A DNA stretch of 43,421 nucleotides from a virus: the IMG/VR virus record IMGVR_UViG_3300001450_000073, positions 1 through 43,421 of that record; one strand, given 5' to 3'. Both the position numbers and the translations under genes were made by a program. Under the pieces are notes generated by a model that was not told the DNA's origin, did no database searches, and saw nothing but the letters and a program-made list of their open reading frames with translations. Shown here piece after piece: positions 7,737 to 40,139 of this stretch (the stretch's first letter is position 1; each line of letters starts with the position of its first letter).

Positions 7737-8195
7737 ATGCCTAACCAAAGATACGGTATAAAATTTCCATTTAATGATAGTGACCAAGGATTTTTCCTAG
7801 GGTTAAACAAAACTACTGATAGTGAAGTTAGGTCTAATTTAATACACCTTATATTGACGGTAAAAGGGTCACGGTACTTTTTACCAGATTTTGGTACTAA
7901 CTTGGTTAAGTATGTTTTTGAACAAATGGATACAACAACTAAAATAGCTATAGACAGTGAAATTAGAGAAGCGGTAAGTAAATACATACCTAATTTAGTG
8001 GTAAATAATGTTGAGGTTAAAACAGCTGATGACGTCAGGTTAGAAGAAGAGGAGACAACTGACCCTATAACAGACATAAATAGTTTTAATTTTATAGGTG
8101 AATCAGAGAGTGAGTACGCAATTCGAGTTAGAATAGATTATAGTGCTGGTGATGGGGTTTTTAGGACTAAAGATTTTGTAATAATAAATTTATAA
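7737..8195 (+). CDS. 25: gp25-like baseplate wedge protein
   Basis: This 152-residue member of the GPW/gp25 family is the lysozyme-like wedge component of contractile tails, binding the gp6-type protein at the baseplate and sheath boundary. It has the family hallmarks RSNLIHLILTVKGSRYFLPDFGTNL (32-56), with the PDFG signature, then EIREAVSKYIPNLVVNNVEV (75-94). A C-terminal beta strand pair ends IRVRIDY...FVIINL. It is slightly longer than T4 gp25 (132), mostly through an acidic insert near 100-120 (RLEEEETTDPITD). It is followed after 1 nt by the gp6-like gene, the standard order. Confidence 0.92.
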   Translation: MPNQRYGIKFPFNDSDQGFFLGLNKTTDSEVRSNLIHLILTVKGSRYFLPDFGTNLVKYVFEQMDTTTKIAIDSEIREAVSKYIPNLVVNNVEVKTADDVRLEEEETTDPITDINSFNFIGESESEYAIRVRIDYSAGDGVFRTKDFVIINL

Positions 8196-8196
8196 T

Positions 8197-10038
8197 ATGG
8201 CAGATAAAAAAATAGCGTACACAGAAAGGGATTTTCTAGGGATTAGGAATGAATTATTAAGGTTAACTAACACTTACTACCCAGACTTAATAAAAAATGC
8301 TAATGACGCTTCAATATATTCAGTATTTTTAGATTTGAACGCAGCAGTAGCAGATAATCTAAATTTCCAAATAGACAGAACGTTCCAAGAAACAGTACTA
8401 CAATTCGCACAAGAAAGAAGTTCTTTATATAATTTAGCTAGAACTTACGCATTAAAAATACCAGGAAATAGACCTTCAGTAAGTGTTTGTGAAATATCTA
8501 TAGTGGTTCCAGTATTGGGTGATAAAGAAGATTTTAGGTATTTGGGTTTATTAAGGAAAGGTTCACAATTTAGGGGCGGAGGACAAATATTCGAATTAAT
8601 TGATGATTGTGACTTCTCTTCACAATATAGTGCAGAAGGAATACCAAACCAAACTAAGATACCAAACAGAAGTGGTAATGGTATAATACAAAATTATACT
8701 ATAATTAAAAAAGAAGTTGTGGTTAATGGGATTACTAGAATATTTAAGAAAGAAATTACTGACTCACTAAACAAACCTTTCTATAAGTTATTTTTACCAG
8801 AAAAAAATGTAATAGGTGTTACTTCAGTAATACAAAAACCAGGATTAGGGTACCAAACACTACCAACTAACCTAGATTTTAATTCTCCAGTAAGTGATAG
8901 ATGGTATGAAGTAGATGCGTTAGCACAAAATGAAGTTTTTGTGGAAGACCCATCTTCCCCATCAGATAAACCAGGAATTAAAGTGGGGAAATACATCACA
9001 GCAGACCAAAGATTTATAACCGAGTTTACCCCAGAAGGATTTTTTCACCTAACCTTTGGTAGTGGGAACAACACATCCCAAAGTTTACTAGACGATTTTT
9101 CATCTAAAGGTATTAAACTAGATATGTCTAAATTTATGAATAATATATCTTTAGGGACTATGGTTAAAGGTAACACCACCTTATTTATACAATATAGAGT
9201 AGGTGGAGGTCAATCATCAAATATTGGAGCGGGAGCTATAACTAATTTAGGTACTGTAGACTTTGTGGTTGTAGGTCCTAGCCAAACGATAAACGAGTCG
9301 GTAAAACAAAGTTTGGCGGTAACCAACACTACCGCAGCTATAGGGGGAGCAAACCCAATGACAACAGAAGAAATACGAAATTATATATCATATAATTTTG
9401 CGGCACAAAATAGAGCGGTTACCATACAAGATTATATATCAGAGTTAAGAACGATGCCAGCGACATTTGGAGCCGCCGCGAAAGTGGGTGTACAAGAAAT
9501 AGAAAATAAAGTAAATTTAGATATATTATCTTATACCCCAGATGGTAAATTAACAAGTTTTGTTAGTAAAACACTTAAAGATAATATCGCTAATTATTTA
9601 TCTAATTATAGGATGATGAATGATTATATAGTTGTTGGTTCTGCAAATGTTATAGATTTGTCCGTAGAAACTTCCCTTATTGTAGAAAGTTCTATAAATC
9701 CAGGAGAAGTTGTTGCTAACGTAATAACAAAAATAAGTGATTATTTTTCTGTTGATAAAATGGAAATGGGTAAGGACTTATCTGTTAGTGCACTGAGAGG
9801 TAACATCCAAAAACAAATCGGGATAATAACTGTAGTAGACCTAAAAGTCTATAATAAAGTGGGTGATGGATATTCTGAATCAGTAACATCACAACCATAC
9901 ATTAACCCTTCTACTAGAGAGATTGGTCTTATAGACGACACAGTATTCGCACAACCTGATGAGATACTACAAATAAGAATGCCACAGAAAGATATAGTTA
10001 TTAGAGTTAAAAAACCAACTAAACCTATTTACACCTAA
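8197..10038 (+). CDS. 6: gp6/J-like baseplate wedge protein
   Basis: This 613-residue protein is predicted to form the iris-like wedge ring of the baseplate, partnering with the gp25-like protein. The N-terminus follows the baseplate-J pattern: YTERDFLGIRNELLRL, a YPDL turn, then DLNAAVADNLNFQIDRTFQETVL (about 47-69) and SSLYNLARTYALKIPG. The central part has an ANPMTTEEIRNYISYNFAAQNRAVTIQDY segment (about 386-414), another hallmark of gp6/J proteins. Length is near T4 gp6 (660). No signal or membrane segments are seen. A 117 nt gap follows, with a weak hairpin and a TATTTAT motif, so this may end a transcription unit. Confidence 0.88.
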   Translation: MADKKIAYTERDFLGIRNELLRLTNTYYPDLIKNANDASIYSVFLDLNAAVADNLNFQIDRTFQETVLQFAQERSSLYNLARTYALKIPGNRPSVSVCEISIVVPVLGDKEDFRYLGLLRKGSQFRGGGQIFELIDDCDFSSQYSAEGIPNQTKIPNRSGNGIIQNYTIIKKEVVVNGITRIFKKEITDSLNKPFYKLFLPEKNVIGVTSVIQKPGLGYQTLPTNLDFNSPVSDRWYEVDALAQNEVFVEDPSSPSDKPGIKVGKYITADQRFITEFTPEGFFHLTFGSGNNTSQSLLDDFSSKGIKLDMSKFMNNISLGTMVKGNTTLFIQYRVGGGQSSNIGAGAITNLGTVDFVVVGPSQTINESVKQSLAVTNTTAAIGGANPMTTEEIRNYISYNFAAQNRAVTIQDYISELRTMPATFGAAAKVGVQEIENKVNLDILSYTPDGKLTSFVSKTLKDNIANYLSNYRMMNDYIVVGSANVIDLSVETSLIVESSINPGEVVANVITKISDYFSVDKMEMGKDLSVSALRGNIQKQIGIITVVDLKVYNKVGDGYSESVTSQPYINPSTREIGLIDDTVFAQPDEILQIRMPQKDIVIRVKKPTKPIYT

Positions 10039-10155: not shown

Positions 10156-13100
10156 ATGTCTCAGTCATCGTTTAGAGTAAGAACTCAAGTAGGTAAAGAT
10201 AAGAAAGTAACTTTTGAATTAAAACAAGATTTTGATTTATTAGAGATACTAAGTCTATCCCTAACACAACAAGAAGTTTATACACGAATGTGTGCGGATT
10301 TTGGTGTTGTTGTTGGTAGAGTCATAACTAACGGTGGGTACGGAGTACCAAACGCAAAAGTATCTATATTCATACCATTAGATGATATAGATGAAGATAA
10401 CCCAGTTATAAGGGCAATCTACCCATACAAAGAAGTTTGGGATTTAAATGATGATGGTAAAAGATATAATTTATTAAGCTCAGACCCTAACTTTAATTGC
10501 CACGTACCAATAGGAAGTTTCCCATCTCTACCAAGAATACTTGCGGACCAAGATGTGGAATACGTATTTAACAAATACTATAAATTTACCGCTAAAACAA
10601 ATGAAGCTGGTGATTTCATGATATATGGTGTCCCCATCGGACAACAATCAGTAGTTATGGATATTGATTTAAGTGATATTGGTTGTTTTTCTCTATTACC
10701 AGAAGACTTTAAGAATATGGGGTATTCACCTAGTGAGTTTGATGGAGCAAAATTTAAAACAAATGATTCCATAGATGCTTTACCCCAACTTATAAATCAA
10801 CAAAAAGCTATAGATGTTAGACCTTTTTGGGGTGACGAAGAATTTTGTAGAGCCTCAATTACAAGGGTAGACTTTGATTTAGGTAACTCAGGATTTAAAT
10901 TACAACCTAACGCTGTGTTTATGGGTAGTGTGGGTCAAGATACAGACAAGGATTCGGTTAATATGAACTGTAGACCAAGAGCTAGTATGGGGGAATTGTG
11001 TAGTTTAATAACCAAACCAGGAATGATTGATGCTATTAGATATACCCCATTCCTTGAAGAAAACCCAAACGCTTTTCCAGCTTGGGACGCCGGCACATCA
11101 AGTTGGGATTACGCAAACCCAATAGGTGGAACAGTACCAATACTAGAAAGATACTACCTATCTAATGGTGGTAGAGTTATAGATAGTTATGGAGCTTTTC
11201 TTGTTCATATGCCAATGAATTTAGACCATTTAATTACAGATGAATTTGGAGACCTAGTTAAATCTGGTGACCCAGATGTTGGTGTACCAACAAGAGCAAG
11301 ATATAGGTTTAGGGTTAGACCAGAAAAAGCAACTGGTGGTGCAAGATTTAGACGGGTAGGTTCCTACTTGGTACCAAATATACACGAGTTTACAACCCAA
11401 GACAATAATGACGGTGATTGGCCAGGTATAGATAGAAGGTCGTACGCTTTCTCTACTGATTATGCAGACTACCATCCTTGGGCACAAAGAAATTTATTAC
11501 CAGGAGCGGATGACTATTTTTATGAAATGACATTTAATCGTGTGTATACATTTTCCCAATTTCATGACCATGTAAAACATGGTGGTAGAAGACAATTTAT
11601 TGGGATAAAAAATATATTGCCTGAACAAGAACAACAATGCTCCACTTCAGCTATGTTTTTCCCCATAAATAGTGCTGTAAGACAAGTTAAATTTATTATT
11701 TTCTTAAATACTTTTATAATAGGTTTTTTAGGTATGCTTTTTATGATTATAGATTTAGTGGTAAGTATACTAGCCGTACTAATTGGTACAATGCTGGCAC
11801 CGGTATTAATTATCATTTGGGCTATATGTAAAATGTGGTGTGCTATTTGGGATATAAATATTAGTCTTTGGGGTGTTACAATCATAAATATGTCAAACTA
11901 TATACCAACACCACCTAAATTATGTAGTCAAATTAATTTAACAGGTTTTGGTTGTGGAGAAAAATGTGAGTATTTTGGTATCCCACTAGGATTCATTTTA
12001 TTTAAACTTAGACAAACCAAGTATCCAGAATGTGAAAAATGTTTGTGTAGACCTAACACTAACGCACAAATGATTGACCTAGCTAATAATTTCCCATGTC
12101 CTGGAGACCCACCAACAACTGGGGGTACAAATAATGGTTCACCATGTCCAGTAGGAAACGGTTCACTAAACACTACAATTGGTGGAAACTTCCAACATGA
12201 TTGTTGTGAACCTACCGACGATACTTATGTGTGTTGTAATGACAACTATGGTTATAATTCAGCTGTGTATTATGACGGACAATGTGCACCACAACCAGAA
12301 ACAGATGGAACAGCTGGTATTGCTGGTGGTGGATGTTATATTAAGGTTATATGTTTTAACCCAGCTTGTCTATTTGAAAATTTAAATATGGTTGTTTTTC
12401 GTCAATGGGCTAGAAGGGAAAAAATGGCGTCAGCACTTTGTAATGGTGTTATGAATTACTATTGGGAAAATAATTGGGTAAGTGGATTTTTATATATGTT
12501 TCAGTTTAATGCTAAGTTGGAATTTGATGAGTCTAACCCAGCATACCCAGAAGGTACATACGCTACAAAATCAAGGTGGTGTAAAAAATTAACATACCTA
12601 CATCCAGACGATAATACTTTCTTTTATAGGTCTACACCTTTTAGGACTATAGGACCTTCAAAAACCGACGGACAGTTTATTGGTGATACAGATGGTGTAT
12701 ATTCACCATGGTGGTCGTTTAATGGTAACGGGTCATCCAACAATCATGCAGATGGAGACATGGACCGACACATACTATTTCCAACAACTATGGTTGACAT
12801 GGGTTCTAGAAATCAATGTATACAACAAATATGTTTAGATACTAACTTTGCCGAAGACTGTTCAGTTACCGACCAAATAGGGAGTACCACATTCCAAGAC
12901 ATAACAGACCTAGTTATGGACATATATAACGTAAAATTACTAAACGATAGTAGCTCAATCAGTACCTTTTACCCAAGACCAGAAATGTCTGTTGGTGGTG
13001 ATGTTGGACAAGCATTAATGCAAAATTGTATGTTGGGGGTCTATGGGTACGAAGCTAATTTAGGTAATACACAGTGTAAATGTGACTATGATAATAACAC

Positions 13101-13764
13101 CATGCTACCAAATGATGATACTGATGCGTTAGGTGGTTTAGAATACCCAGAACCTAATTTTGATATAACCACTTGGGTAGACCACGCAGTAAACGCATCC
13201 TGTAATAAATATTACCCAATTCAGTGGGAACCACTTTTATTTACAGGCCAAACAGAAACTATAATGGACGCAGAAAATCTAATAGAATGTCTTACCTTAG
13301 AGTTGTCAGCGGCCACACAACGAGTACCATTTTATGCTTGGGAAACCTCTAGTAATAACGCTAATCCACTAGCCCCTGGCTTTGGTAGTGATTTTAACGA
13401 TTGGATGTACACTAAAGGTGAGTACGTACATAGACACTCAATGAATGCCCCTGGTATGTCAACAGTACCATCACTATTTTACAGTTTTCAAAGTGACATT
13501 CACGTACCAAATCTTTCATGGCCATCAGGAGGTCCAGGCGCGGGTGGGTATATACAAAGTGCTGGGTTTTTCCAAAACGATTTAGGTCAAGAATTAGGGT
13601 TTACCCACCCCAATTCCTATCCAGTAATGACCAGTATGAGTGATAAACAAATGGTTTTCTCACAACCCTTATTCTTTTATTTTGGTTTAAGACCTGGGAA
13701 TACATCGTTTAATATATTTGTAAGAAAATATATAGATGAAGAATTAGCGGATGGTGTAATATAA
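10156..13764 (+). CDS. Large baseplate/tail protein with hydrophobic helices and a Cys-rich region
   Basis: This 1202-residue protein of unknown family is probably a virion baseplate component. Residues about 50-170 look like a carboxypeptidase-regulatory-type beta domain (VVGRVITNGGYGVPNAKVSI, then after a long insert TNEAGDFMIYGVPIGQQSVV). Residues about 513-556 form a continuous hydrophobic stretch (two helices, FIIGFLGMLFMIIDL and LAVLIGTMLAPVLIIIW). It is followed by a Trp/Cys-rich segment and many Cys (about 595-640 and 680-745) in CxxC-like spacings. It follows gp6 where T4 has gp7 (1032 residues), and the size suits, but I see no convincing gp7 motif. A membrane-contacting or host-envelope role is inferred from the helices. 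The stop overlaps the next ATG (TAATG). Confidence 0.85.
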   Translation: MSQSSFRVRTQVGKDKKVTFELKQDFDLLEILSLSLTQQEVYTRMCADFGVVVGRVITNGGYGVPNAKVSIFIPLDDIDEDNPVIRAIYPYKEVWDLNDDGKRYNLLSSDPNFNCHVPIGSFPSLPRILADQDVEYVFNKYYKFTAKTNEAGDFMIYGVPIGQQSVVMDIDLSDIGCFSLLPEDFKNMGYSPSEFDGAKFKTNDSIDALPQLINQQKAIDVRPFWGDEEFCRASITRVDFDLGNSGFKLQPNAVFMGSVGQDTDKDSVNMNCRPRASMGELCSLITKPGMIDAIRYTPFLEENPNAFPAWDAGTSSWDYANPIGGTVPILERYYLSNGGRVIDSYGAFLVHMPMNLDHLITDEFGDLVKSGDPDVGVPTRARYRFRVRPEKATGGARFRRVGSYLVPNIHEFTTQDNNDGDWPGIDRRSYAFSTDYADYHPWAQRNLLPGADDYFYEMTFNRVYTFSQFHDHVKHGGRRQFIGIKNILPEQEQQCSTSAMFFPINSAVRQVKFIIFLNTFIIGFLGMLFMIIDLVVSILAVLIGTMLAPVLIIIWAICKMWCAIWDINISLWGVTIINMSNYIPTPPKLCSQINLTGFGCGEKCEYFGIPLGFILFKLRQTKYPECEKCLCRPNTNAQMIDLANNFPCPGDPPTTGGTNNGSPCPVGNGSLNTTIGGNFQHDCCEPTDDTYVCCNDNYGYNSAVYYDGQCAPQPETDGTAGIAGGGCYIKVICFNPACLFENLNMVVFRQWARREKMASALCNGVMNYYWENNWVSGFLYMFQFNAKLEFDESNPAYPEGTYATKSRWCKKLTYLHPDDNTFFYRSTPFRTIGPSKTDGQFIGDTDGVYSPWWSFNGNGSSNNHADGDMDRHILFPTTMVDMGSRNQCIQQICLDTNFAEDCSVTDQIGSTTFQDITDLVMDIYNVKLLNDSSSISTFYPRPEMSVGGDVGQALMQNCMLGVYGYEANLGNTQCKCDYDNNTMLPNDDTDALGGLEYPEPNFDITTWVDHAVNASCNKYYPIQWEPLLFTGQTETIMDAENLIECLTLELSAATQRVPFYAWETSSNNANPLAPGFGSDFNDWMYTKGEYVHRHSMNAPGMSTVPSLFYSFQSDIHVPNLSWPSGGPGAGGYIQSAGFFQNDLGQELGFTHPNSYPVMTSMSDKQMVFSQPLFFYFGLRPGNTSFNIFVRKYIDEELADGVI

Positions 13765-15542
13765 TGAGTAATAGAAAAAATATAAGAATTGTTAAGGGTA
13801 GTTCCAGGTTTGCTGGAGCACAAGATAAAAATGTAGGGTTACAACCATTTCTATCATCTGATGTAAGAAATATGATAGAAGGTGATAGAAATCTAGTACT
13901 AAACTTACAAACCCAATTTGAACTAGAGAGAGAAAGTTGTGATATATATAGGATGTATGGCAATGTTTCTATTTTGTATAATAATGTTATAAGTGGGGAT
14001 ACTGATGATAGTGAATTTTTAAATAGCATGTTTTTTTTACCTGCTTATTTAGGATGTCCCAATGGGGGACCCTGCACAGGGTTACCACCAGCTGACACAT
14101 TTAACTTTATTCCCCAAAAGAATTATGGGTCATCCAACACTAGTGTATATAATTCCTTAACCGCATATCAAGACAATTGGTTAACTTACATATCCTACAT
14201 ACATGGTTCAGAAGAAAATGAATCTATGACTTTCTATTTTAATCCAGACACCAACAACCTAGAAGGCTTAAATTTTGTAGCTGGAGATGGAATCCCATTC
14301 CAACTAGAAATCATAAGTATTGATGGTAGAGACGCTGCACAATTTACAAGTCCAGTACCACATGGTTTAGAAGTTGGTGAGTATATTGTATTACAGAGTG
14401 GGACCACATTAAGTACTTTCCCAAACGCAACAAACCTAACAACATATTTAACAACATCATATGATTTACAAGGTGCTACCTACACATCCATACAAAACAC
14501 TTTTAGGGTAGATTCCCTAGGTAGTGAAATTGCCGGCACTGAAAAATACATAATAAACATATACCTAAGGAGTTTAGATAGTTCTACACTCCCACCAAAC
14601 CCAGTAGGTACCTTTAAAAGGATGATAAATTTAGGGAACCCTATAGAGTTTACATCTAACTATTATACCCATAAACATAAATTAATAACAAACCCTAATG
14701 ATTATTCTTTAGATAGGACAGGGTTTGAGTCTGGGATATTTAATAGGAAAGGAAGAGTCTTTAAACAAAAAAAGACACCACCAGGGTACGGGGAAAAAAC
14801 AGTAATAACAGAAGAATTTAAATCTTATTTATGGAATGTTAATTTAGATATTGATAGGACCGACTATTTTGATAATTTAAATAGACCAATAGGGGACTTA
14901 TATCTAACTATACTACCTAGTAATAAAAATCTAATGTGGAATTATCAGAGCCACCAATCCCCAGCTGGGTACGGGTGGGATTGGAATTTTAGAAAAAATG
15001 GGTATGTAGACCCATTTATAGATAATAATACTAATTGGGTAAATTTAACACAAACTGCAAATAACGCAGTAAGCTTACCACCTAGTGGTACAACATTTAG
15101 AGGAGCGTTTGTAGAATATAACCCATACGAATTAAAAGAAACTATAATTTCAGAAATAGGACACTCACTTAAATTTAATAAGGACGTTATGCGACAACCC
15201 GACACACCTAATGATTTTATAAAGTCTATATACAGGTATGAACCACACCATAGAATACCTATTAGAAAATTTTCTACCAGTATAAGTTCTAACGATACAC
15301 TATTTACATCACCTCAATATGCAACATATTCTTTATCAGAAAGTGTGTTTAGGTGGAGAGCTATTTTACCTATAGGGTATTACGAAGACGAAGTTCATGG
15401 TGTTGATTATCCATATTTAAATGATGCACACTACCCACATCTAGATTTAAATTTTAATATAGAGCCTATATTTTCCTATCCAGACGGAACTCTATATTCT
15501 GGAATAACTATAATAAACGATTACGTAGATGACTGTCAATAG
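13764..15542 (+). CDS. Unidentified probable baseplate/structural protein (592 aa)
   Basis: The family is not recognised. The 592-residue sequence is beta-rich, Asn/Tyr/Gly-rich and soluble-looking, with no signal peptide or membrane helix. The N-terminus (NRKNIRIVKGSSRFAGAQDKN) is basic. A segment near 345-420 has several aromatic residues (GYGWDWNFRKNGYVDPF). The C-terminal part has WRAILPIGYYEDEVHGVDYPYLNDAHYPHLDLNF, which looks like a conserved core. It starts inside the previous stop codon (TAATG) and overlaps the next gene by 14 nt, so it is tightly coupled to both. Position between the gp6-like gene and the giant fibre suggests a baseplate wedge or fibre-attachment protein. That is inference from context. 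Confidence 0.8.
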   Translation: MSNRKNIRIVKGSSRFAGAQDKNVGLQPFLSSDVRNMIEGDRNLVLNLQTQFELERESCDIYRMYGNVSILYNNVISGDTDDSEFLNSMFFLPAYLGCPNGGPCTGLPPADTFNFIPQKNYGSSNTSVYNSLTAYQDNWLTYISYIHGSEENESMTFYFNPDTNNLEGLNFVAGDGIPFQLEIISIDGRDAAQFTSPVPHGLEVGEYIVLQSGTTLSTFPNATNLTTYLTTSYDLQGATYTSIQNTFRVDSLGSEIAGTEKYIINIYLRSLDSSTLPPNPVGTFKRMINLGNPIEFTSNYYTHKHKLITNPNDYSLDRTGFESGIFNRKGRVFKQKKTPPGYGEKTVITEEFKSYLWNVNLDIDRTDYFDNLNRPIGDLYLTILPSNKNLMWNYQSHQSPAGYGWDWNFRKNGYVDPFIDNNTNWVNLTQTANNAVSLPPSGTTFRGAFVEYNPYELKETIISEIGHSLKFNKDVMRQPDTPNDFIKSIYRYEPHHRIPIRKFSTSISSNDTLFTSPQYATYSLSESVFRWRAILPIGYYEDEVHGVDYPYLNDAHYPHLDLNFNIEPIFSYPDGTLYSGITIINDYVDDCQ

Positions 15543-16404
15543 AATACAGATAAAAGCTTCTTTAGGTGATAAGAATATTACCATTCCTATAAGTCAAAAT
15601 TTTGATGAAGTAGGAAGAGAGCAACTTTTAGAGATATACGATGAAGTGGAATTACAGGATAATATAAATCCAATTATAGATTATGAAACAACCAGATATT
15701 CACACCTTTTTCCACCCGACAATAAAATATATTACAAATTCCAGTTCCGTGACTATAATTCCCAAACCTATAATGATGACTTTACTTTATTGGGGTATAC
15801 ACAAAAAGAGTTAGCAAAAAAGAGTAGTGCTGTTAATAAAAGCTTTTTTAAACTTGATTATTACGATTCCCCAGTAAGGGAAGAACAGAAATTAATGTTT
15901 TCTGTTATTATGCCTTTAAATAATTGTATAAAGGTAGAAAGACAAGTAATACCAGAGGAAGACCCATATGAATACTATAGCCAAATTGCACAAGGTATAA
16001 TCCCACCAGTATATGGTGTTTACAGTCCTACAATGATTTTAGGCCCAAATAAAGGGATAAATGAAAACTATTACATACAATGGTTGAAAAAAAGAGATAT
16101 ATACGATATGGATACTTTTTATATGTCTTGTAAATTTTTTAACGCTAAAACTGGTAAAGTAATAAAAATGATAAATGAAAGCCCACCAACCCCATTACCA
16201 GAAGCATACGATTTTAGGAATTGGTTTTATTATCAAGTTAAACTTAATATAAATCCTGCGTTAGTAGGACCTAAATATTATTATGAGGTTAGAACCTTTA
16301 ACATTAATAATTATAATACCGGAGTCTTAGGTCAGATAGTTGGTAGGGAAGACAACCCGCCAACCAGTTACCCTATAAGATTTTATGAATATATAAACCC
16401 TTAA
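15529..16404 (+). CDS. Unidentified probable structural protein (291 aa)
   Basis: This 291-residue protein is of unknown family. It begins MTVNRIQIKASLGDKNITIPIS, beta-strand rich, and is Tyr/Pro/Asn-rich throughout, with no membrane segment or enzyme motif. The ATG lies inside the end of the previous gene (14 nt overlap). The next gene, for the giant protein, starts 3 nt after its stop. The tight coupling suggests it works with the giant protein, for example as its attachment or connector subunit, or is a baseplate part. This is inference. Confidence 0.78.
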   Translation: MTVNRIQIKASLGDKNITIPISQNFDEVGREQLLEIYDEVELQDNINPIIDYETTRYSHLFPPDNKIYYKFQFRDYNSQTYNDDFTLLGYTQKELAKKSSAVNKSFFKLDYYDSPVREEQKLMFSVIMPLNNCIKVERQVIPEEDPYEYYSQIAQGIIPPVYGVYSPTMILGPNKGINENYYIQWLKKRDIYDMDTFYMSCKFFNAKTGKVIKMINESPPTPLPEAYDFRNWFYYQVKLNINPALVGPKYYYEVRTFNINNYNTGVLGQIVGREDNPPTSYPIRFYEYINP

Positions 16405-16407
16405 TAT

Positions 16408-19400
16408 ATGGAAGTACAAAAGTTTAGAATAACAAGAAAAAATGCACCCAGTTATTGGAGTATCCCCTGTTCGGGAGGCACCGACTACTGGCCTATAAAT
16501 TACAGTACTAACTGTTCGGGAGTTACTATGTACAATTCCACAACTAGTCAGGTACAATTAAGTTTGAGTGGGGATGTGACCACATTTCCAGAAGAGTTAA
16601 GGGGGTGTTCCATATCTAACCCTTGTGTGTTACTTAATGACCAGTTTACATCCACAAATCTAGCTCAATGCACAAATATAGGTCAGTTCGGGTATGTTAA
16701 GTTTATGGGACTTAAAGCAATATTTAGTGGTACATTCATACAAAACGGGAGTTATGACGAACTAATCCATCTTAAAGACCTAACCAACGCAAACCAATAC
16801 ACCTTTACTCAAAATGTGGGAGGTTGCTTTTGTGTCGACCCACTAGAGGAAAATTTAAGTCAAATAACATTAAAACTAACCCAAGATTTTAATGATATAG
16901 GTCATTATTCTATTTGGGACGGAAACATAAGTCAAAAAGAAATATTTAGTAATTTTATAGTTACCGCAGACACCAATAACCCTATGAAAATACGGGTATA
17001 TAACACTACAGATTTTTCTTACTACAAGTCACTACAAGAATCCCCATATACTATTAGTTTTGGGGGCGCTCAACAAGCTATACTACAATACCCTAATTTA
17101 AGTACTGCACATACGTATACCAATACTACACCCATGCAGAAAAAAATTACCATAACACAAGAAACACCCTGGGGTCCTATGTCAGTAAGTCAAACTATTT
17201 GGGTTCCATTTATGTCTTACCCACAATTAAAAGCACTAGGTCCGGTTGTGGGAATTCCACCACAAGAATATCCAATCTATAACCACCTAGGAACACAAAT
17301 TTCAAGTGGGTTCCATGAGATATCACCAGGAACACCATGGGATTCTGGTACCGATATCATGCAGTACAGTGCGTTAAGTCCAACTGCATGCTTCGATGTT
17401 TCAGGTGTAACAGAAAGTATGCTAAGTCTATTCCAAACATATTCCTCAACACCATCAGGGAGTCCTTTCTTACCTCCTGGATATTTTGAACTCGTACCAA
17501 CAGAGTTAGGTTCTGATGTAGTCAACCCAGTAACGGATGAAATAGTACCAGCTATGATTGGTCAAATAACACAAGCGACTAACGGTTATACAGCATATAC
17601 TATTAGTTCTGGTGTGAATAACGCTGCGACAGTAGAATTATATGACTTTTCTAATGGGATAACCCTCTATAACGCAACCAGTTGTGGGTTAAATTCTTTA
17701 GCTTTTGGAGCGTACGATTGTTTTAAATGTTTATTAGAAGATTGTGCTTTTTGTGAGACCAAAGACGAATATACTGATAGAATAACTGGAGTACCGATGA
17801 GCATCTTGTCAGGACCATCTTTTCAGAAAGGTGTGTGGAGTTCCAGTGTAGATTATGTTCGTGGTGATATAATTTTTGATGAAAACTACGGACAATGTTG
17901 TTGTTATATGGCCGTTGAAGATATAAACCAAACTAGTTCACCATCACCATGGGCATTCGTACCACCAACAGAGACATATCAAGGAGTTTGGTACGATAAT
18001 GGATTACCAACTAAACATATTTGGGAAGCGTGTGACCAGTCTTGTTTAGTATGCCCTCCAGGTACCACAGTACCATGTGAAGACCCAACTATAGTACAAC
18101 TTGCTCCAGAAATATCTTTGGGTGTCCCACTTTTAGGTGGTGTATACGCGAACGGTAATAGTTATACTACAGGACAATATGTTACTGGGTTAGATAGTAA
18201 TTGTTACCAAGCTTTAGCAACAGGTAATTTAGGTTCCCCAAGTGCATTTACTAATAGTAATGAATGGGACTATATAGGTTGTGGTTCTTGGATATGTCCT
18301 CAGGACTTAACAAGTGTTAGTACTACTAGTTGTGATTTTATAAATTCTTCAGCATTAACGGTAACAACACCACAAGGACCTTTTACATTAAATGGTTACC
18401 CATTTTATGGTGACTGTATTGATGATTATAATGACGGTGAATGTTATCCGGATAGATGGTTATGTGGGGATGAACTGGGTAATATCACACAATATAGTTG
18501 TAATGGATGTATAGAAATAACAACAAATAACCCACAATATACTAATTTTGACCCAGCCGACCCTTATGCTGGACCAGTTTTTCAAAACCCTGATGATTGT
18601 ATGGATTGGTGTGAACCACCAGCTTGGTCATGTACCACAGCTACAGGTCCGGCTGGAGAATGTTGTAGTCTAATATCCTGTGCTGAAGATTTTCTAACAG
18701 GAATACCAGTATATACGAGTTTGATAACTAATGTGATAAATACATTACCTTCTCCAATACCACCACCTTTTAGTCAAGCAGAGTATATAGCGAATATACA
18801 CCAATTATATTTTGAGGATGGTCCATGGCTACCAACAGCACAATGGGCATGTAATCACGGGGTACCCTTAATATCAGATACATGTTGTGAGTATACAGGG
18901 TGGAATTATGATTGTGAACAAGGGTGTTATGAAGTTACAATAGGGGGTAGTTACTCAACCCAATATTCCTGTCAAACAGCTAATCCAGCTGGAATAACTC
19001 AATGTGGTTGGAGTTGTGAGACAATGAATTCACCATGTATTCCGTGTTGGACTTTAGGTTGTGGGTGGCCAGTACCTAACGAAGATTTATGTAACCAAAA
19101 CTGTACCGCTTTAACAACTTGTATAGTTTGTGATTGTACAAGTCAAACACCTTGCTCAATGTACGCAGACCCAAACAATAATGGTCAACCAGGGTGTCCT
19201 TATTGGCCACCAGACCCATTCGGAGTTCCACCAACCTTTACCTCTTACACACAATGTGACGAATATTGTGAATGTGACGTAGGTTGGGATTGTGTTCTTA
19301 ATGACGATGGAACACCAACCTCGGAAGGGTGCACACAATACCCGAGTGCTTATGTTATGGCACAACTAGGGGTAACGTTTTCTCAACCACCACCATTTAC

Positions 19401-22400
19401 TGGGTATGCTACATCTGGCGAATGTTGTGAAGCAACTAGATGTTGTCACGCAGCTTGTAATGACGATGACTTTATAGCTGGAACAGGTACAACCCAAATG
19501 TTCCCAGCAGGATATTATCCATGTTACTGGTTTTTACCACTTGGTAATGTTGAGATGTGTTCTCATGGTGGACCAAATGCTGCTGGGAATACAATTGTGA
19601 CACAAGGTCTGTATGGACTACCTTATTGTGATATAATTGAATGTACCACAGACCTATGTGTTATACCCAATACTACACCAGACGAGTATGAGTGTTGTCC
19701 TGATGCTGATAGTTGTATGTGTGCTTGTAATTGGTTAGAACCAGACCCAGGTAACCCCGTATTTACAGATAAAGGGTACTGGGATAATAATTTATTTTAT
19801 GGTGAAGGTGATATAGTTTCTTATTGGGACCCTAATTCACCAGGTACAATGGACAACCCTTGTTGTTATCTTTGTGCTTGTCCTTGGTTAGGGGTGGGTA
19901 CAGCGGGAACAGACCCTCTTGGTACCGGTATTGTTTATGATTGCACTGTTTTTACTCCAGATGATGGTCCAGCAACGGATGGAACACCTAATTGTTGGTT
20001 AGCTTGTGACCATACAGCAGGAGGTACAGTACCTTCTCCTATATGTGGTGAACCTTGTGGACCATGTTGTGGTGACAGCGGTGATACATTTGAGTGTACC
20101 CCAGCTGGGTGTATTGTCTCCTCATGTGTAATAGATGTAAACTTCACTCAGACATCACAAAATTGTTATGGTGATATAGGGACATGTGATAATGAATGTG
20201 GGGCAAGTTGTTTTTGTGAGGAAATAATAGGAGGAATAGATGAAACCGGATGTGTATCCCAATATGATTGGATAACTCAAACAGATACCATACTACAACT
20301 ATCAACAGCTAGTATTATGTATCCTAATTACCCACCTACTGTACCACCAGGGTTATTCGCACCTACATTTCCGTTAACTACATTCAATGATTGTTTAGCT
20401 ATAGCAGCACCAACAGGAGCCTTAGATTGTTGTGATACTTCAGGTGTGACGTTTAATTGTGATGATTCTTCTAATTGTGAACCAATGTCAAATACAGCGG
20501 GGTTAGGGTGTATACCTATACCACCTGGACACGGTTCATACCCAGGACAATTTACTAGTATAGCTGCCTGTCAAGAGTGGTGTACGTGGACTTGTAATCC
20601 AGACCCACTAAGTTTTGCGGGATGCTCCTGTACATTTCTCTCCAACCCAGCTTCACCACCAGTACCAACATATGTGTCGGCGTTTGATTGTTGGATGCAT
20701 ACTAATAATTGTGATTGTTGTGTAGCAACTACTTATTTTTGTGACCAAAATGGTGCGATAAATGGGTTGTATGGGACACCAGGAGTTTCGGCTTGTGTAT
20801 CATCATCCTACATTAATGGTGCGTCTCCAAGTGTACAGGCACAAGCGTGGGGGATAGGTCAAGTTAGTTATACTAACGGGGGTACTGGGTTTGCTAGTCT
20901 TCAAGATTGTGAAGACCAATGTGTATTTTGCTGTCAATGTTCACCACCTGGTAGTGGGTTCTGTGAGTTGGAATGGGGGCAAACTTTGTGTTGTACTGGT
21001 GCCGTCCCACAACTTAACCCTTCAGACTGTCAGATAACAACAACATCAACAATTGGTTATTATCCTTGTTCAGCAGCTACCACAGAATATTATTGTGATG
21101 ATTTAGACGGTTGTACTGGGTACCTAGCCACCAATCCACCTTTAACATTTGCTTCTGGACCATACCCTTCTATGGCCTTATGTCAAGCAGAATGTAATTT
21201 TTTATGTGGTGATTGTATAAATGGGTGTGTATGTGTGTTTTTAAATCAAACAACCACCTGTACCCCAGTATTTGATAGTATGACAGGGTGTACGTTTAGT
21301 GTTAATAACGGACCATATACAAATTCACCAACAGACAATTGCTGTAACTGTTATGAATGTATACAAATAGGTAGTGTTAATTACTATTCGTGGGATAATA
21401 TAAATAGCAATTGGATTTTATCCAATACTACTATGTCAATACCACCTACCCCATCTACACTAGGTTCTATATGGGATAATACCACACTATACCAGTTAGG
21501 TGACGTAGTGTTATTTACACAAACATTTGGTCCACCTTCCTATAGTAGTACCACATGTTGTTACGTGTGTGTTACTGATAGTTACACACAACCTACCCAT
21601 GGAGCTTTAACACCATTCGACTGGTATGAAGCATATTGGAATGACTACCAAACCAATACACCAGTATGGGAAAATGGTGGTGGTACTGGAAATTTAATAT
21701 GGATACCATGTGATACTGGATGTATCGGACCAGTTAACGTTATTAGTTGGAATTGTATAGAAGGTACACAAACAAACAGTTGTAACGGAGTCGTATATTT
21801 GGATGGTGCTACAGACCCTACTTTACCGTGGGCTGGGGGGTTGATACCAAACTTTAGTGAGTACATGCAGTACATAGCCATCGCATCAAACGGACTACAG
21901 TCAACACCACATAGTGGAATTAGAGTTGAAACTGCTGGTAATAGTGCTTGTGATACATCGTATGGTGGACAATGGATGAGTGTTGGGTTAAAGATAAAAA
22001 GTTGTAATGCTGACCCAGTAGTGGACGCAGCAATTCCTGGAGGAGGCCTATCCACAACTTCCTACGCTGATTTTGTGAACCAAGCAACAATGTTGGGGAT
22101 ACTAGGACTAAGCCTATCCAACACACACCCAGAAAATTGGGCAGCTTTTCAGATACATTGTGGTCAAGCAAATAATGAATCTGGAAATGACTCTACATGG
22201 GCCGCAACATACGGTATACCTAACAATAGTCTAAATGTTAGTGGGTACGACTACGCAGACCCTAATTTATGTATTTGCACAACATCACCGTGTTATTGTA
22301 ACAGTGTGATTGGAAATGGAGGTCAGTATAATACAGAACAAGATTGTCAAGATGTTATTGATTCCTTTGGTCCTGGTGCTCACCCATGTTGTGAATCTGC

Positions 22401-24921
22401 TACTACAGGATATTATGTATGTGATGTAGGAGCAGTTTGTAGTTGTATATTTGACCCAGCAGCACTTTCCGGGTATCCAAACCAAACAGCGTGTGAAAAC
22501 GATACTACAACTTGTTGTTATATTCCGGTACCTTGGGAATGTGTCCAAAGTTTTACACCTAGTAATTACACTGACCATTGTGTGAATACCCCAATACTGG
22601 ATTCAAACGAATCTTCGAATCTAGTAAATTTAGGTTGGGACTCACAAGATATTAACGACGAAATGGCAAATAATAGTTTCCTTTATCCTACTGATATATG
22701 GAGTTATGAAACTATTATAGCGTCATATGGTATAAGTGCGGACTTTAGTGCTTATAGATGGGCAAAATGGACGTTAGCATGTCCTCCAGCGTTACAAGGA
22801 ACTACATGTTGTAGAGCCCCAAACAATGACTATCAATACGTCAAAGGAAATGGTATGCATAATTTAATATTAGACGCTATAGCCGGGTCAGTCCAAATGT
22901 TCTACACACTTAAAGATTATGTTGATACTGCGGTTGCATTGGGAGCTCCAGCAGTTCAGTTAAATACAGGACTAAATGTAGGAGCCTATGGGGTGTACCA
23001 AGGGTATCAATGTGATTATAGTGTTATAGCTCATATTATCGGGAATTCTTTAGGAGCAACTGCTTCAATGCCTAATGGGTGTAACGCTGAAGCTGGTGGG
23101 TTACTTTCATTTATTAATTGTGATAGATTTATTGCAGAACCATGTTGTATATCCGATTGTACGTGTGTACAAAATGCAGCCGCTGTTGCCCCGAACTCAT
23201 TTATTGACGCTATTAGTTGTGAAAACGACCCTAATTTCTGTTGTTATACCCAACCACTACAAAAATGGGAATGTTTTGATTGGGGTGATGATGAATGTGA
23301 ATGTCTACCAAGTGGAACTGGGATTTATGACAATAAACTTGATTGTGAAAACGATTACCCAAATAACTGTTGTTCTGAACCACCAGTACCGGGAGCATTT
23401 GTGTGTGATGGTAATTGTAACTGTGTATGGGACCCAGCGGCCACTATTGGTTTTCCAAACCTACCTTCATGTCAAGCAAGTCAAACTACATGTTGTTTTT
23501 TACCCCCTTCAGGGTTTTGGGTGTGTGAACAAACATTAAGCCCACAACAACAATTGATTTGTAATTGTGTTTTTGACGCAACAGCACTAAGTGGTAGCTT
23601 ATCACTATTAGACTGTCAAACGGACCCAAATACGTGTTGTGGCCCACAGACATATTATAGATGTTTTGATTGGGGTGACGATGAATGTGAATGTTTAGTA
23701 GACCCAACATGTTTTACAGTAGGTAATGGTTGTTACGCTAACCTTAGTGATTGCCAAAACCACTATGGACAAAATTGTTGTAGTCCAAATGTTATGGTAC
23801 AGTCATGGGATTGTGACCAGGGAACTTGCTATGACCCAGGAACGGGATTAGGACAATACGCGAGTTACCCAATGTGTGTAGCAGCTTGTTCACCACCACT
23901 TATCGGTTGTGAGGATTGTGCTCTTACACTAGGTTTATATTTAACCGCACCAATTACATTTTTAGGGAATTGGACATCACCACTTAATTACCCACTAAAT
24001 AATTGTGTGGTGGACCCAGATGATGAGTGTTGTTACTGTTGTGTTAAGTGGGTAGACCCATCTGACCCACAAGACGCTACATTACAAGCTAAAATGAGTG
24101 CACCACCTAGATGTGCACTGGGGAATCAACCATCAGTAAGCATAGGTCAAAACATTGGTGGTGGTATGTGGATGGATTGTGGGTTTAATGATAATGGTGA
24201 CCCTTGTAACCCTACTGTTGGTGAGTGTGGTGAATGTGCCATTACTTTAGCTAGTGATTTAACAGGACCTATAAATTACGTACCATACAATGGGGTCTAT
24301 GGGAATTATTTTGAGAATGACTGTATACCAAACACAGCAAATGAACAGTGTTGTCATTGTTGTGTATTGGACAGTAACCCAGTAGTGGGTCCTTTGGGGA
24401 TAAAAGAGTCTAGGACAAGTGTTATACCATGCCAAATTATCAATGACGTCTTAATTATAAATTCCCAAGGATATGCATGGAAAAATTGTGGTTACGATAG
24501 TTCAGGTAACTGGCAAGATTGTACGGGGGGACCGGTAGATATTTGTAAAAAATGCTGTATGGATAGTGCAGGTAACGTAGTTTACCTTATTCAAAACCAC
24601 CCAACGTGTGAGTGTAAGCCAGATGAAACAGAAGTTAACTGTCACCCAAATGACCCATGTAAGTCTATGCCACTTAGTAATTGTTGTGTTCACTGTGCAA
24701 GTGGTGCGGCACTAAACATTAACCACGATTGTTATTTATTTTGTCAACAATGGGGTCATTGTTGTACTGGAGGGCCTAGTGACCCACATGACCATGACCA
24801 TGAGCCAATGGAGTTAATAGAAGCTCCTTGTATACAAACAGAATCGTGTGCAATGGGGTACCAATGGAGTTGGAGTCAGTGTAAGTGCGTAGCAAGTAGA
24901 ATAAATTTAAATGAAGGTTAA
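16408..24921 (+). CDS. Giant cysteine-rich multidomain adhesin/fibre protein (2837 aa)
   Basis: This 2837-residue protein occupies a fifth of the window. Residues 1 to about 430 are beta-rich with few Cys. After that Cys density is very high (about 15% over residues 2246-2460, counted by eye). Two module types recur. One resembles CBM5/12 carbohydrate-binding domains: [WY]-x5-Y-x2-G[DQ]-x-[IV], then Cys-Tyr-x-Cys and Trp, starting at residues 477, 580, 1125 and 1689. The other is small disulfide-type modules ending in [FY]-x-[ST]-x3-C-x3-C or CC, including a tandem array at the C-terminal end. A His/Asp cluster (DPHDHDHEP, about 2791-2799) lies near the end, where it could bind metal. No signal peptide is seen, as expected for a virion protein. 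I infer a receptor- or glycan-binding fibre. No family name can be given. Confidence 0.85.
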   Translation: MEVQKFRITRKNAPSYWSIPCSGGTDYWPINYSTNCSGVTMYNSTTSQVQLSLSGDVTTFPEELRGCSISNPCVLLNDQFTSTNLAQCTNIGQFGYVKFMGLKAIFSGTFIQNGSYDELIHLKDLTNANQYTFTQNVGGCFCVDPLEENLSQITLKLTQDFNDIGHYSIWDGNISQKEIFSNFIVTADTNNPMKIRVYNTTDFSYYKSLQESPYTISFGGAQQAILQYPNLSTAHTYTNTTPMQKKITITQETPWGPMSVSQTIWVPFMSYPQLKALGPVVGIPPQEYPIYNHLGTQISSGFHEISPGTPWDSGTDIMQYSALSPTACFDVSGVTESMLSLFQTYSSTPSGSPFLPPGYFELVPTELGSDVVNPVTDEIVPAMIGQITQATNGYTAYTISSGVNNAATVELYDFSNGITLYNATSCGLNSLAFGAYDCFKCLLEDCAFCETKDEYTDRITGVPMSILSGPSFQKGVWSSSVDYVRGDIIFDENYGQCCCYMAVEDINQTSSPSPWAFVPPTETYQGVWYDNGLPTKHIWEACDQSCLVCPPGTTVPCEDPTIVQLAPEISLGVPLLGGVYANGNSYTTGQYVTGLDSNCYQALATGNLGSPSAFTNSNEWDYIGCGSWICPQDLTSVSTTSCDFINSSALTVTTPQGPFTLNGYPFYGDCIDDYNDGECYPDRWLCGDELGNITQYSCNGCIEITTNNPQYTNFDPADPYAGPVFQNPDDCMDWCEPPAWSCTTATGPAGECCSLISCAEDFLTGIPVYTSLITNVINTLPSPIPPPFSQAEYIANIHQLYFEDGPWLPTAQWACNHGVPLISDTCCEYTGWNYDCEQGCYEVTIGGSYSTQYSCQTANPAGITQCGWSCETMNSPCIPCWTLGCGWPVPNEDLCNQNCTALTTCIVCDCTSQTPCSMYADPNNNGQPGCPYWPPDPFGVPPTFTSYTQCDEYCECDVGWDCVLNDDGTPTSEGCTQYPSAYVMAQLGVTFSQPPPFTGYATSGECCEATRCCHAACNDDDFIAGTGTTQMFPAGYYPCYWFLPLGNVEMCSHGGPNAAGNTIVTQGLYGLPYCDIIECTTDLCVIPNTTPDEYECCPDADSCMCACNWLEPDPGNPVFTDKGYWDNNLFYGEGDIVSYWDPNSPGTMDNPCCYLCACPWLGVGTAGTDPLGTGIVYDCTVFTPDDGPATDGTPNCWLACDHTAGGTVPSPICGEPCGPCCGDSGDTFECTPAGCIVSSCVIDVNFTQTSQNCYGDIGTCDNECGASCFCEEIIGGIDETGCVSQYDWITQTDTILQLSTASIMYPNYPPTVPPGLFAPTFPLTTFNDCLAIAAPTGALDCCDTSGVTFNCDDSSNCEPMSNTAGLGCIPIPPGHGSYPGQFTSIAACQEWCTWTCNPDPLSFAGCSCTFLSNPASPPVPTYVSAFDCWMHTNNCDCCVATTYFCDQNGAINGLYGTPGVSACVSSSYINGASPSVQAQAWGIGQVSYTNGGTGFASLQDCEDQCVFCCQCSPPGSGFCELEWGQTLCCTGAVPQLNPSDCQITTTSTIGYYPCSAATTEYYCDDLDGCTGYLATNPPLTFASGPYPSMALCQAECNFLCGDCINGCVCVFLNQTTTCTPVFDSMTGCTFSVNNGPYTNSPTDNCCNCYECIQIGSVNYYSWDNINSNWILSNTTMSIPPTPSTLGSIWDNTTLYQLGDVVLFTQTFGPPSYSSTTCCYVCVTDSYTQPTHGALTPFDWYEAYWNDYQTNTPVWENGGGTGNLIWIPCDTGCIGPVNVISWNCIEGTQTNSCNGVVYLDGATDPTLPWAGGLIPNFSEYMQYIAIASNGLQSTPHSGIRVETAGNSACDTSYGGQWMSVGLKIKSCNADPVVDAAIPGGGLSTTSYADFVNQATMLGILGLSLSNTHPENWAAFQIHCGQANNESGNDSTWAATYGIPNNSLNVSGYDYADPNLCICTTSPCYCNSVIGNGGQYNTEQDCQDVIDSFGPGAHPCCESATTGYYVCDVGAVCSCIFDPAALSGYPNQTACENDTTTCCYIPVPWECVQSFTPSNYTDHCVNTPILDSNESSNLVNLGWDSQDINDEMANNSFLYPTDIWSYETIIASYGISADFSAYRWAKWTLACPPALQGTTCCRAPNNDYQYVKGNGMHNLILDAIAGSVQMFYTLKDYVDTAVALGAPAVQLNTGLNVGAYGVYQGYQCDYSVIAHIIGNSLGATASMPNGCNAEAGGLLSFINCDRFIAEPCCISDCTCVQNAAAVAPNSFIDAISCENDPNFCCYTQPLQKWECFDWGDDECECLPSGTGIYDNKLDCENDYPNNCCSEPPVPGAFVCDGNCNCVWDPAATIGFPNLPSCQASQTTCCFLPPSGFWVCEQTLSPQQQLICNCVFDATALSGSLSLLDCQTDPNTCCGPQTYYRCFDWGDDECECLVDPTCFTVGNGCYANLSDCQNHYGQNCCSPNVMVQSWDCDQGTCYDPGTGLGQYASYPMCVAACSPPLIGCEDCALTLGLYLTAPITFLGNWTSPLNYPLNNCVVDPDDECCYCCVKWVDPSDPQDATLQAKMSAPPRCALGNQPSVSIGQNIGGGMWMDCGFNDNGDPCNPTVGECGECAITLASDLTGPINYVPYNGVYGNYFENDCIPNTANEQCCHCCVLDSNPVVGPLGIKESRTSVIPCQIINDVLIINSQGYAWKNCGYDSSGNWQDCTGGPVDICKKCCMDSAGNVVYLIQNHPTCECKPDETEVNCHPNDPCKSMPLSNCCVHCASGAALNINHDCYLFCQQWGHCCTGGPSDPHDHDHEPMELIEAPCIQTESCAMGYQWSWSQCKCVASRINLNEG
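17836..17965 (+). other. CBM5/12-like module 1 within the giant protein
   Basis: W477-x5-Y483-x2-G486-D487-x-I is followed by Cys-Cys-Cys-Tyr and, further on, SPWAFVPP. The spacing matches chitin-binding CBM5/12 modules (W....Y..GD.V ... Y.C ... W). Extra cysteines suggest a disulfide-stabilised variant. Further copies start at 18145, 19780 and 21472. This is a by-eye motif match only. Confidence 0.5.
18145..18282 (+). other. CBM5/12-like module 2 within the giant protein
   Basis: Y580-x5-Y586-x2-G589-Q590-x-V592 keeps the spacing of module 1, with Tyr for Trp and GQ for GD. It is followed by NCYQA and, about 25 residues later, EWDYIG. This is the most degenerate of the four copies, and it lies only about 100 residues after module 1. 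Confidence 0.42.
19780..19908 (+). other. CBM5/12-like module 3 within the giant protein
   Basis: W1125-x5-Y1131-x2-G1134-D1135-x-V1137 is followed by CCYLCACPWLG. Same residue spacing as module 1, with the CCY-x-C signature shared with module 4. Confidence 0.5.
21472..21642 (+). other. CBM5/12-like module 4 within the giant protein
   Basis: W1689-x5-Y1695-x2-G1698-D1699-x-V1701 is followed by CCYVCVTDSYTQPTHG and then tryptophans (DWYEAYW). It is the best match to the CBM5/12 layout, including the downstream Trp. It shares CCY-x-C with module 3. Confidence 0.52.
23143..23905 (+). repeat. Tandem array of six-cysteine modules (coding repeats)
   Basis: Six consecutive modules of about 30-50 residues follow each other with no spacer. 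Five follow C-x(n)-C-x-C-x(n)-C-x(n)-CC, with an aromatic residue two before the first Cys in most. The last ends in a four-Cys form, C-x4-C-x15-C-x3-C. An isolated relative begins at 22411. Two modules carry the identical 12-residue string CFDWGDDECECL, coded at 23272-23307 and 23662-23697. The nucleotide copies differ only at two third-codon positions and one synonymous Leu codon. This indicates module duplication within the gene. Confidence 0.7.
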
Positions 24922-24971: not shown

Positions 24972-25193
24972 ATGGCATTTAATATTGTAAAAGTAACTGG
25001 TTGTATAGTACCGTTGACAAAAGAAGAAGTGTTAATGAATGTATGTACACGTCCAGAAACAAGGTCAAATATATTTATTGAAAGAGGTGTTATTAGTGTA
25101 TTTGAAAGACCACAAAGATTAGGACAAACCCCTAACATGGGAGAATTAGAGTATCATGGACACGGGTATTATAAAATAGAAAAACAAATATAG
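24972..25193 (+). CDS. Small unidentified protein (73 aa)
   Basis: This 73-residue protein has two cysteines (CIVPL, NVCTRP), is mildly basic and has no membrane segment. It follows the motif at 24952. Its TAG stop abuts the next ATG, with no intervening base. The frame is credible because it is cleanly placed between two supported genes and has a good A/T-rich leader. Function unknown; perhaps a small tail or connector protein. Confidence 0.65.
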   Translation: MAFNIVKVTGCIVPLTKEEVLMNVCTRPETRSNIFIERGVISVFERPQRLGQTPNMGELEYHGHGYYKIEKQI

Positions 25194-39311: not shown

Positions 39312-40087
39312 TGGGTTATTTAAATATACATAATAATACTTTATCGGGCAATACATTTAGAATGTATTTGTCAGATTATGGCAAAAGTGTGTTAAGTACT
39401 GGTGGGTTTTTTAGTGCGTTAGATAAATTTGGGTTGTCGGATTCTGATATAGACTATAGAAGATTTGTAGGTGACGGTAATTGTGTTAATCAACTAACAT
39501 TAAGTGCACTTACAGGTTCTTGTTTTTATGATTTACCGGATTTAAGAGGTGGAGAACCGACAACACTATCAACAACATATGGAACTACAACTTCGGTAAT
39601 GGTAGGTCCACGATGTGATGTAAAAAATGGGGCGGTTAGATTACATGAAACATGTTATGGAGTAAATCCAGTAAACTCTACTTTATGGCATACGTACACA
39701 CCACAACCGAAATACGGGGAAATAGATAACCCCGAAAGTGGAATGGAGAGTAGTTGTTGGACACTAGGTAAAAATGTAACTAACTATTACCCATCATATT
39801 GTATAACATGTGCAGACTTCAATACTGATGGTCAGATAGATATTACGGATTTAAAAACCATGTTAAATTTTGTAGGAGCAAACAATTATGAGGGTGAGGA
39901 GTTAATGGGAGATTTTAATGGTGATGGTAAGGTAGATATATTAGATTTAACTAGTTTTATGGAATGTATGAAATTTAATAATGTAGACATAAATAATTTT
40001 TGTTCAGATAAAGAAGTTTTTTGTTTGCTTTGTGAACATTTAGGAAATAAATCACCTTGTAACGGGGACTGTTTAAAATGTGTTTAA
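39311..40087 (+). CDS. Fibre-type protein with dockerin-like domain (258 aa)
   Basis: This 258-residue protein has three parts. The N-terminus (15-51) matches the shared fibre domain: FRMYLSDYGKSVLSTGGFFS then FGLSDSDIDYR. A middle segment has scattered Cys. A dockerin type I-like pair of Ca-binding loops spans 169-212, D169-F-N-T-D-G-Q-I-D-I-T-D180 and D201-F-N-G-D-G-K-V-D-I-L-D212. Ligand positions 1, 3, 5, 9 and 12 are kept in both loops, which start 32 residues apart. The end (231-257) is Cys-rich (C-x6-C-x2-C and CNGDCLKC). Dockerins normally bind cohesin domains in multiprotein complexes; no cohesin is evident here, so the partner is unknown. Confidence 0.8.
   Translation: MGYLNIHNNTLSGNTFRMYLSDYGKSVLSTGGFFSALDKFGLSDSDIDYRRFVGDGNCVNQLTLSALTGSCFYDLPDLRGGEPTTLSTTYGTTTSVMVGPRCDVKNGAVRLHETCYGVNPVNSTLWHTYTPQPKYGEIDNPESGMESSCWTLGKNVTNYYPSYCITCADFNTDGQIDITDLKTMLNFVGANNYEGEELMGDFNGDGKVDILDLTSFMECMKFNNVDINNFCSDKEVFCLLCEHLGNKSPCNGDCLKCV
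39815..39946 (+). other. Dockerin type I-like domain (two Ca-binding loops)
   Basis: The coded loops are DFNTDGQIDITD and DFNGDGKVDILD. Both fit D-x-N-x-D-G-x-[IV]-D-x-x-D exactly, and 32 residues separate their starts, as in dockerins. Each loop is followed by a Leu-starting helix (LKTMLNFV and LTSFMECM), completing the half EF-hand pattern. Confidence 0.85.
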
Positions 40088-40139
40088 AATATAACAGAAA
40101 TCAAATAACAAGATAATTATATAATAATAGGATAATAAT

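Follow-up and report, generated by a model that had tools for sequence, protein, structure and literature searches.

We show that a 43,421-base virus record (the window, by which we mean the whole stretch of DNA analysed) encodes a 2,837-residue protein with 240 cysteines, amounting to 8.5% of its residues. Its sequence and conserved position, the conservation and grouped loss of its cysteines, a module shared with Flavobacteriales and a fast-changing distal region in its relatives together suggest that this protein is probably a baseplate-anchored adhesin, binding a receptor or another surface, of a T4-related myovirus probably of marine Flavobacteriales, and that it would be oxidised after lysis.

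The window also encodes SSB, UvsX, an exonuclease, a DnaB-like helicase, a ribonucleotide reductase and the gp25 and gp6 baseplate wedges, a gene content that indicates a contractile-tailed, T4-related phage. None of 22 window genes has a Shine-Dalgarno-like site, an absence that is usual in Bacteroidota, and the preliminary description's assignment to a phage, probably of Bacteroidota, is supported. We regard the virus as an uncultured marine phage with a probable Flavobacteriales host. The same giant protein, at 100% identity, is present on a longer contig (IMGVR_UViG_3300025168_000078, 65,948 bases).

Table 1. Features of the giant protein and its neighbours, with positions in the window.
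Feature	Position	Strand	Basis
gp25-like baseplate wedge	7737..8195	+	PHROG 261, 5e-16
gp6-like baseplate wedge	8197..10038	+	PHROG 219, 7.7e-18; 27% identity to Flavobacterium phage immuto wedge
orf1202, orf592, orf291, unnamed, between gp6 and giant ORF	10156..16404	+	synteny
Giant Cys-rich ORF	16408..24921	+	2,837 aa, ATG start, without internal stop
N-terminal core, residues 1-430, common to short members (540-1,254 aa)	16408..17697	+	family alignment; BFVD relative
PKD-like domain, about residues 181-268	16948..17211	+	Foldseek to Vibrio PKD1 domains
Cys-dense part, residues 426-2837	17683..24918	+	Cys counts and conservation
'W..Y..GD.V..CC' module, copy 1, residues 462-505	17791..17922	+	hhalign P94 with 1674-1724
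Lys/Arg-free stretch of 716 residues, 1123-1838	19774..21921	+	residue count
'W..Y..GD.V..CC' module, copy 2, residues 1124-1156	19777..19875	+	hhalign P65 to 1688-1721
Hairpin-helix Cys modules, residues 1347-1603	20446..21216	+	module profile; predicted secondary structure
'W..Y..GD.V..CC' module, copy 3, residues 1674-1738	21427..21621	+	hhalign P88-89 to 460-516
Fast-diverging distal region, residues about 1801-2650	21808..24357	+	by analogy with relatives
Tandem Cys modules, residues 2237-2494	23116..23889	+	self-comparison, module profile, predicted secondary structure
28-residue 4-Cys module WDCDQGTCYDPGTGLGQYASYPMCVAAC, residues 2467-2494	23806..23889	+	GTDB-module profile match
orf73, 73 aa (~60-aa anchor alone)	24972..25193	+	comparison with relatives

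Composition, family and genomic position

The preliminary description had reported a cysteine-rich reading frame of this length, with cysteine concentrated in its last four-fifths and peaking at about one residue in seven. The frame is real, and both it and the high cysteine content are kept in 19 other full-length relatives; the dense part is slightly larger than proposed, beginning at residue 426 and occupying about 85% of the chain, with 0-5 cysteines per 100 residues before residue 400 and up to 15 (1 in 6.7) afterwards. Cysteine content in the other labelled cluster ORFs of more than 300 aa from related loci has a median of 1.0% and a maximum of 6.9%, the latter in a long orf73 homologue, and the cysteine richness of the giant protein exceeds chance. 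A point missed earlier is the scarcity of basic residues, with Lys and Arg together accounting for 49 of the 2,837 residues. When these 49 were placed at random, the mean longest gap was 255 and the observed 716 was reached in none of 1,000 trials; the longest such stretches in relatives span 206-572 residues. An in-silico tryptic digest places only 293 of the 2,837 residues within peptides of 7-30 aa, and trypsin-based proteomics would largely miss giant cysteine proteins of this class.

Alignment of the first ~460 residues defines a family of 55 loci that splits into two sets, giant members (2,440-2,991 aa when complete, with cysteine totals of 181-255 among 20 representatives) and short members of 540-1,254 aa (with 3-6% cysteine). 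A core bearing a QDFNDIG-like motif is common to all members. Since sizes range from 540 aa, hardly more than the core, to ~3,000 aa, the cysteine part appears to be an addition to this core, which is presumed to be the baseplate anchor. At loci with enough DNA the gene order is conserved as gp25-gp6-orf1202-orf592-orf291-CYS-orf73-orf306-orf1051, with giant and short members in the identical CYS slot. Where the CYS protein of a virus is short, the place of orf73 is taken by a cysteine-bearing protein of 225-1,078 aa that ends in the ~60-aa piece of orf73, as if the cysteine decoration had moved between the two neighbouring genes. Some of these long orf73-type proteins contain GCTDPxAxNYNPxATxDDGSC repeats.

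By eye, two hydrophobic stretches form a long double segment in the middle of orf1202 (10156-13764), beside a cysteine cluster, which is odd for a baseplate-cluster protein. Successive ORFs of 802, 258 and 627 aa (36903-42023) seem, also by eye, to have a similar N-terminal stretch, perhaps a joint attachment piece; the second of them, orf258 (39311-40087), lies in a phage cluster and contains dockerin type I repeats that score 32.6 bits in Pfam, over a cut-off of 22.9. One short family member (L091:9665-12622) weakly matches dockerin and EF-hand profiles on the N-terminal side of its core.

Consistent with the earlier statement that no known family could be recognised, neither the whole protein nor its slices matched Pfam, PHROGs, NCBIfam or PDB sequences above cut-off, known fibre and RBP families in these four collections included. 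Cultured phages (INPHARED) yielded no match to giant or short members, GTDB genomes no relatives of the core, and an open-access paper library, searched for cysteine-rich phage or Bacteroidota proteins, no description of the giant protein; profiles of orf1202, orf592 and orf291 likewise gave no usable PDB match. The protein family is new, and its probable kind, the phage adhesin, is already known. It suggests an unnamed large class of marine-phage baseplate-cluster proteins to which standard annotation assigns nothing.

Structure prediction for residues 1-1120 had a mean AlphaFold pLDDT of 56, and local domains alone were used. In a medium-confidence model of the core, Foldseek aligned a domain to 6aem/4l9d with probability 1.00 and a target TM-score of 0.65-0.67, which points to a predicted PKD β-sandwich fold. 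At the sequence level, Pfam PKD (PF00801/PF18911) is below threshold in relatives (at best 18.8 bits, in L085, vs a cut-off of 27), and the window slice has no match to these two entries. The core also has a BFVD fold match to A0A6J5L9U6 (E 3e-15).

Cysteine modules and their Flavobacteriales counterparts

The repeating modules noted in the preliminary description are borne out by a profile self-comparison, which finds two kinds of repeated unit, namely the 'W..Y..GD.V..CC' unit and a unit with 4-6 cysteines in many copies (consensus TTWECDDTGTGGCNCVPDPPAGGGYASLADCQNDPNNCC), of which 11 copies were detected in the giant protein with a module profile. For residues 1330-2500 AlphaFold gave a mean pLDDT of 56, with local values near 70 in several modules, and predicted a strand-strand-helix arrangement in each of residues 2285-2322, 2329-2363 and 2369-2411. 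A PDB fold search with this low-confidence model returned no confident match, and the profile of the cysteine region matched no PDB sequence at E<=1. The proposal of an undescribed structure may thus hold, with low confidence, for the cysteine modules, but it does not hold in full for the N-terminal part with its PKD-like domain. Resemblances of the modules to Kunitz domains and zinc fingers are visual or topological and hence not claimed, and a plant late-nodulin likeness, likewise not claimed, is below threshold (23.9 bits in a host protein vs a cut-off of 30.4).

The preliminary description had called the modules typical of secreted disulfide proteins, and this is supported by the module at residues 2467-2494, which is also found in Flavobacteriales proteins that seem to bear export signals. 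A profile built solely from modules of GTDB genomes recovers the window module at E 3.4e-11 and 38.9 bits, whereas five cysteine-preserving shuffles of the family score at most 4.9 bits. This profile gives no significant score for the remaining modules of the giant protein, whose kinship to the 2467-2494 module is drawn from the family profile alone; a module-like C-terminus seen by eye in orf1345 (YSCIEGICRLSDRGEYKTIEECEKRC) was rejected as not significant (E 6.1). Searched for as a DNA pattern with fixed spacing, the module occurs in 11 viral contigs and in 33 genome stretches, several of them from one genome, of which 32 are titled Bacteroidota, mostly Flavobacteriales, and some lie on contigs longer than 500 kb. 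The remaining stretch belongs to a 'Euryarchaeota' MAG and may be mis-binned; its ORF is close to one from Crocinitomicaceae (L132, L137).

By eye, many of the Flavobacteriales module ORFs have an apparent signal peptide, lipoprotein signal or C-terminal sorting tail; Pfam/TIGR04183 confirmed a Por secretion tail in one of the eight scanned, and one host module protein has a trypsin-like peptidase domain. Lys and Arg make up 0.1% of residues within host modules (2/2,001) vs 4.5% outside them. The scarcity of these residues is characteristic of the module class, and protease resistance as its cause is a guess on our part. The shared module ties these phages to Flavobacteriales and could serve as a host clue for uncultured phages.

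Distal divergence, probable cysteine pairing and competing readings

That the protein is an exposed chain, as proposed earlier, is supported by the distal part of its relatives. Between L064 and L065, dN is 0.08-0.14 over residues 1801-2700 vs 0.000-0.013 over residues 1-1800 and 0-0.007 in flanking genes; between L071 and L076 it reaches 0.13-0.43 over residues 1801-2700, vs 0-0.010 over residues 1-1500, 0.047 over residues 1501-1800 and 0-0.009 in flanking genes. In a third pair (L049/L050) distal divergence is weak, with dN of 0.01-0.05. Distal dS is raised too, up to 0.85 vs 0.03-0.09 over residues 1-1500, which identifies local recombination as one source of the divergence, besides relaxed or diversifying selection. 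Diversification by a retroelement was rejected, since no reverse transcriptase (RVT_1) was found in 12 larger contigs, which may be fragments, and three control genomes were positive. Rapid change at the far end, with the cysteines retained, would be expected if the protein were exposed and served attachment, and the combination of a conserved place in the tail and baseplate cluster, a constant N-terminus and a variable C-terminal part is shared with receptor-binding proteins and tail fibres.

From these observations we infer a place in the virion, disulfides and the time at which they form, receptor binding and, tentatively, a direction of module exchange. The first ~430 residues, including the PKD-like domain, would form the constant piece attaching to the baseplate, the remaining chain a stiff, protease-hard string of small modules with two or three disulfides each, and the last ~1,000 residues the variable part contacting the target or host. 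The chain would be made reduced in the cytoplasm and then carried on the baseplate, its cysteines pairing once lysis frees the particle into oxic seawater, and the modules would probably have been traded with extracellular proteins of the host. It is tempting to go further and view the protein as a host-recognition organ that matures only after lysis, a very long, nearly Lys/Arg-free chain of disulfide modules derived from extracellular proteins of the host. Oxidation in seawater would give the chain its final fold, and its specificity would change as phages and hosts trade distal modules; this extension is tentative.

The same structure and folding would also suit a chain that binds glycans, particles or algal surfaces and so raises the encounter rate, with a target other than the host receptor. 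The PKD-like fold fits such a role, as do the first Foldseek hits of the core, to surface glycan-binding proteins of Bacteroides (E 1.6e-4, with poor superposition), and weak similarity to CBM5/12, which is below threshold and confined to the relatives L091 (19.2 bits) and L085 (15.1 bits; cut-off 26.2). However, the window copy of the 'W..Y..GD.V..CC' module has no CBM5/12 Pfam match and the window modules themselves match no CBM, and the fast, probably recombining distal region of near-identical phages is better explained by co-evolution with a variable host surface. We therefore consider an environmental target unlikely, though worth keeping in mind.

Cysteine conservation was assessed on 23 sequences, reduced to 20 rows less than 90% identical. 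In this alignment the window's cysteines are kept at 80%, vs 41% for tryptophan and lower values for all other residues, and 124 of the 240 are invariant across all 20 full-length sequences; in pairs at 60-95% identity, cysteine is exchanged at 1.7% and tryptophan at 16.9%. When a consensus cysteine is lost, another tends to be lost within four cysteines of it (32/54, vs 11.1 +/- 3.5 on random placing). Kinship among the relatives inflates this count, and separate examples exist, with L052, L053, L069 and L079 having lost one pair and L057 another. CC and C-x3-C are in excess, and CxxC is not enriched (16 observed vs 17.9 expected).

This pattern favours disulfides over metal, in that it is what disulfides predict without being proof of them. 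The preliminary description had allowed for stabilisation by metal, in which clusters of cysteines would bind zinc or Fe-S in the cytoplasm with no need for oxidation. Synthesis in a reducing compartment and a predicted strand-strand-helix topology resembling that of zinc fingers would suit metal binding, but the unenriched CxxC, the rarity of His (31 residues), the frequent loss of cysteines in twos and the occurrence of the 2467-2494 module in exported-looking host ORFs weaken the proposal and make it improbable.

Odd cysteine totals in 9 of the 20 relatives indicate that some cysteines are free or join chains. One could thus imagine that the main task of the cysteines is to tie adjacent chains together or to make the particle resistant to proteases, with no role in recognition, all the more as near-absence of Lys and Arg would resist trypsin-like proteases and a disulfide network links baseplate and fibres in Agrobacterium phage Milano (PMC10811340). 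A hypervariable distal third is nevertheless unexpected for armour, and the cysteines lie mostly within small self-contained modules, so we hold a purely covalent role to be distinctly improbable. Very improbable is a protein released at lysis to act on neighbours or debris, as the exported look of host module proteins, one with a peptidase domain, might suggest, given the invariant baseplate-cluster position, the lack of a signal peptide by eye and the conservation of the N-terminal core down to 540-aa members.

The adhesin reading raises a testable question, namely how a 240-cysteine protein synthesised under reducing conditions in the cytoplasm comes to function as an exposed chain. One might expect a phage so rich in cysteine to encode helpers for oxidation, and the absence of DsbA from the 12 larger relatives (contigs that are possibly fragments) counts against this reading. 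Thioredoxin is present in two of these 12 and possibly serves ribonucleotide reductase, and an Erv/ALR search of the larger relatives was silent, as it was in control genomes.

Comparison with known systems

The nearest cultured phages have no recognisable homologue in the slot of the cysteine protein, a point against the adhesin reading. Flavobacterium phage immuto (Immutovirus) and Microcystis phage Mel-JY01 share the gp25 and gp6 neighbours (~27% identity for gp6) and a weak downstream orf1051 homologue, as in the window cluster, but in the stretch read they have no detectable homologue of orf1202, orf592, orf291 or the cysteine protein. The core itself resembles A0A6J5L9U6, a PKD domain protein of an uncultured Caudovirales phage, in fold and at 25% identity; at 364 aa, however, that protein is too short for a cysteine-rich part.

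The Flavobacteriales WxCxxGxCxDPGxGxGxY(x5)CxxxC proteins (GTDB L115-L147) share the 4-Cys module and the near-absence of Lys and Arg inside it. They differ in having one to five modules each by the simple pattern, no phage core and, in many cases, what seem to be export signals at the N-terminus or sorting tails at the C-terminus. Viral ORFs (L105, L107 and L108-L114) also bear single or tandem copies on viral contigs, and in L107:1793-4828 several tandem modules occur alongside DUF285/BspA-type repeats and a region weakly matching PKD.

Phage Milano offers a precedent in a cysteine-rich contractile-tailed virion, with disulfides in the baseplate and fibres. Its baseplate disulfide network includes the short tail fibres, and its structural proteins contain 2.1% cysteine vs 0.9% in T4 (PMC10811340). 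While Milano relies on an extensive inter-chain network, the window protein concentrates 8.5% cysteine in one chain of small modules.
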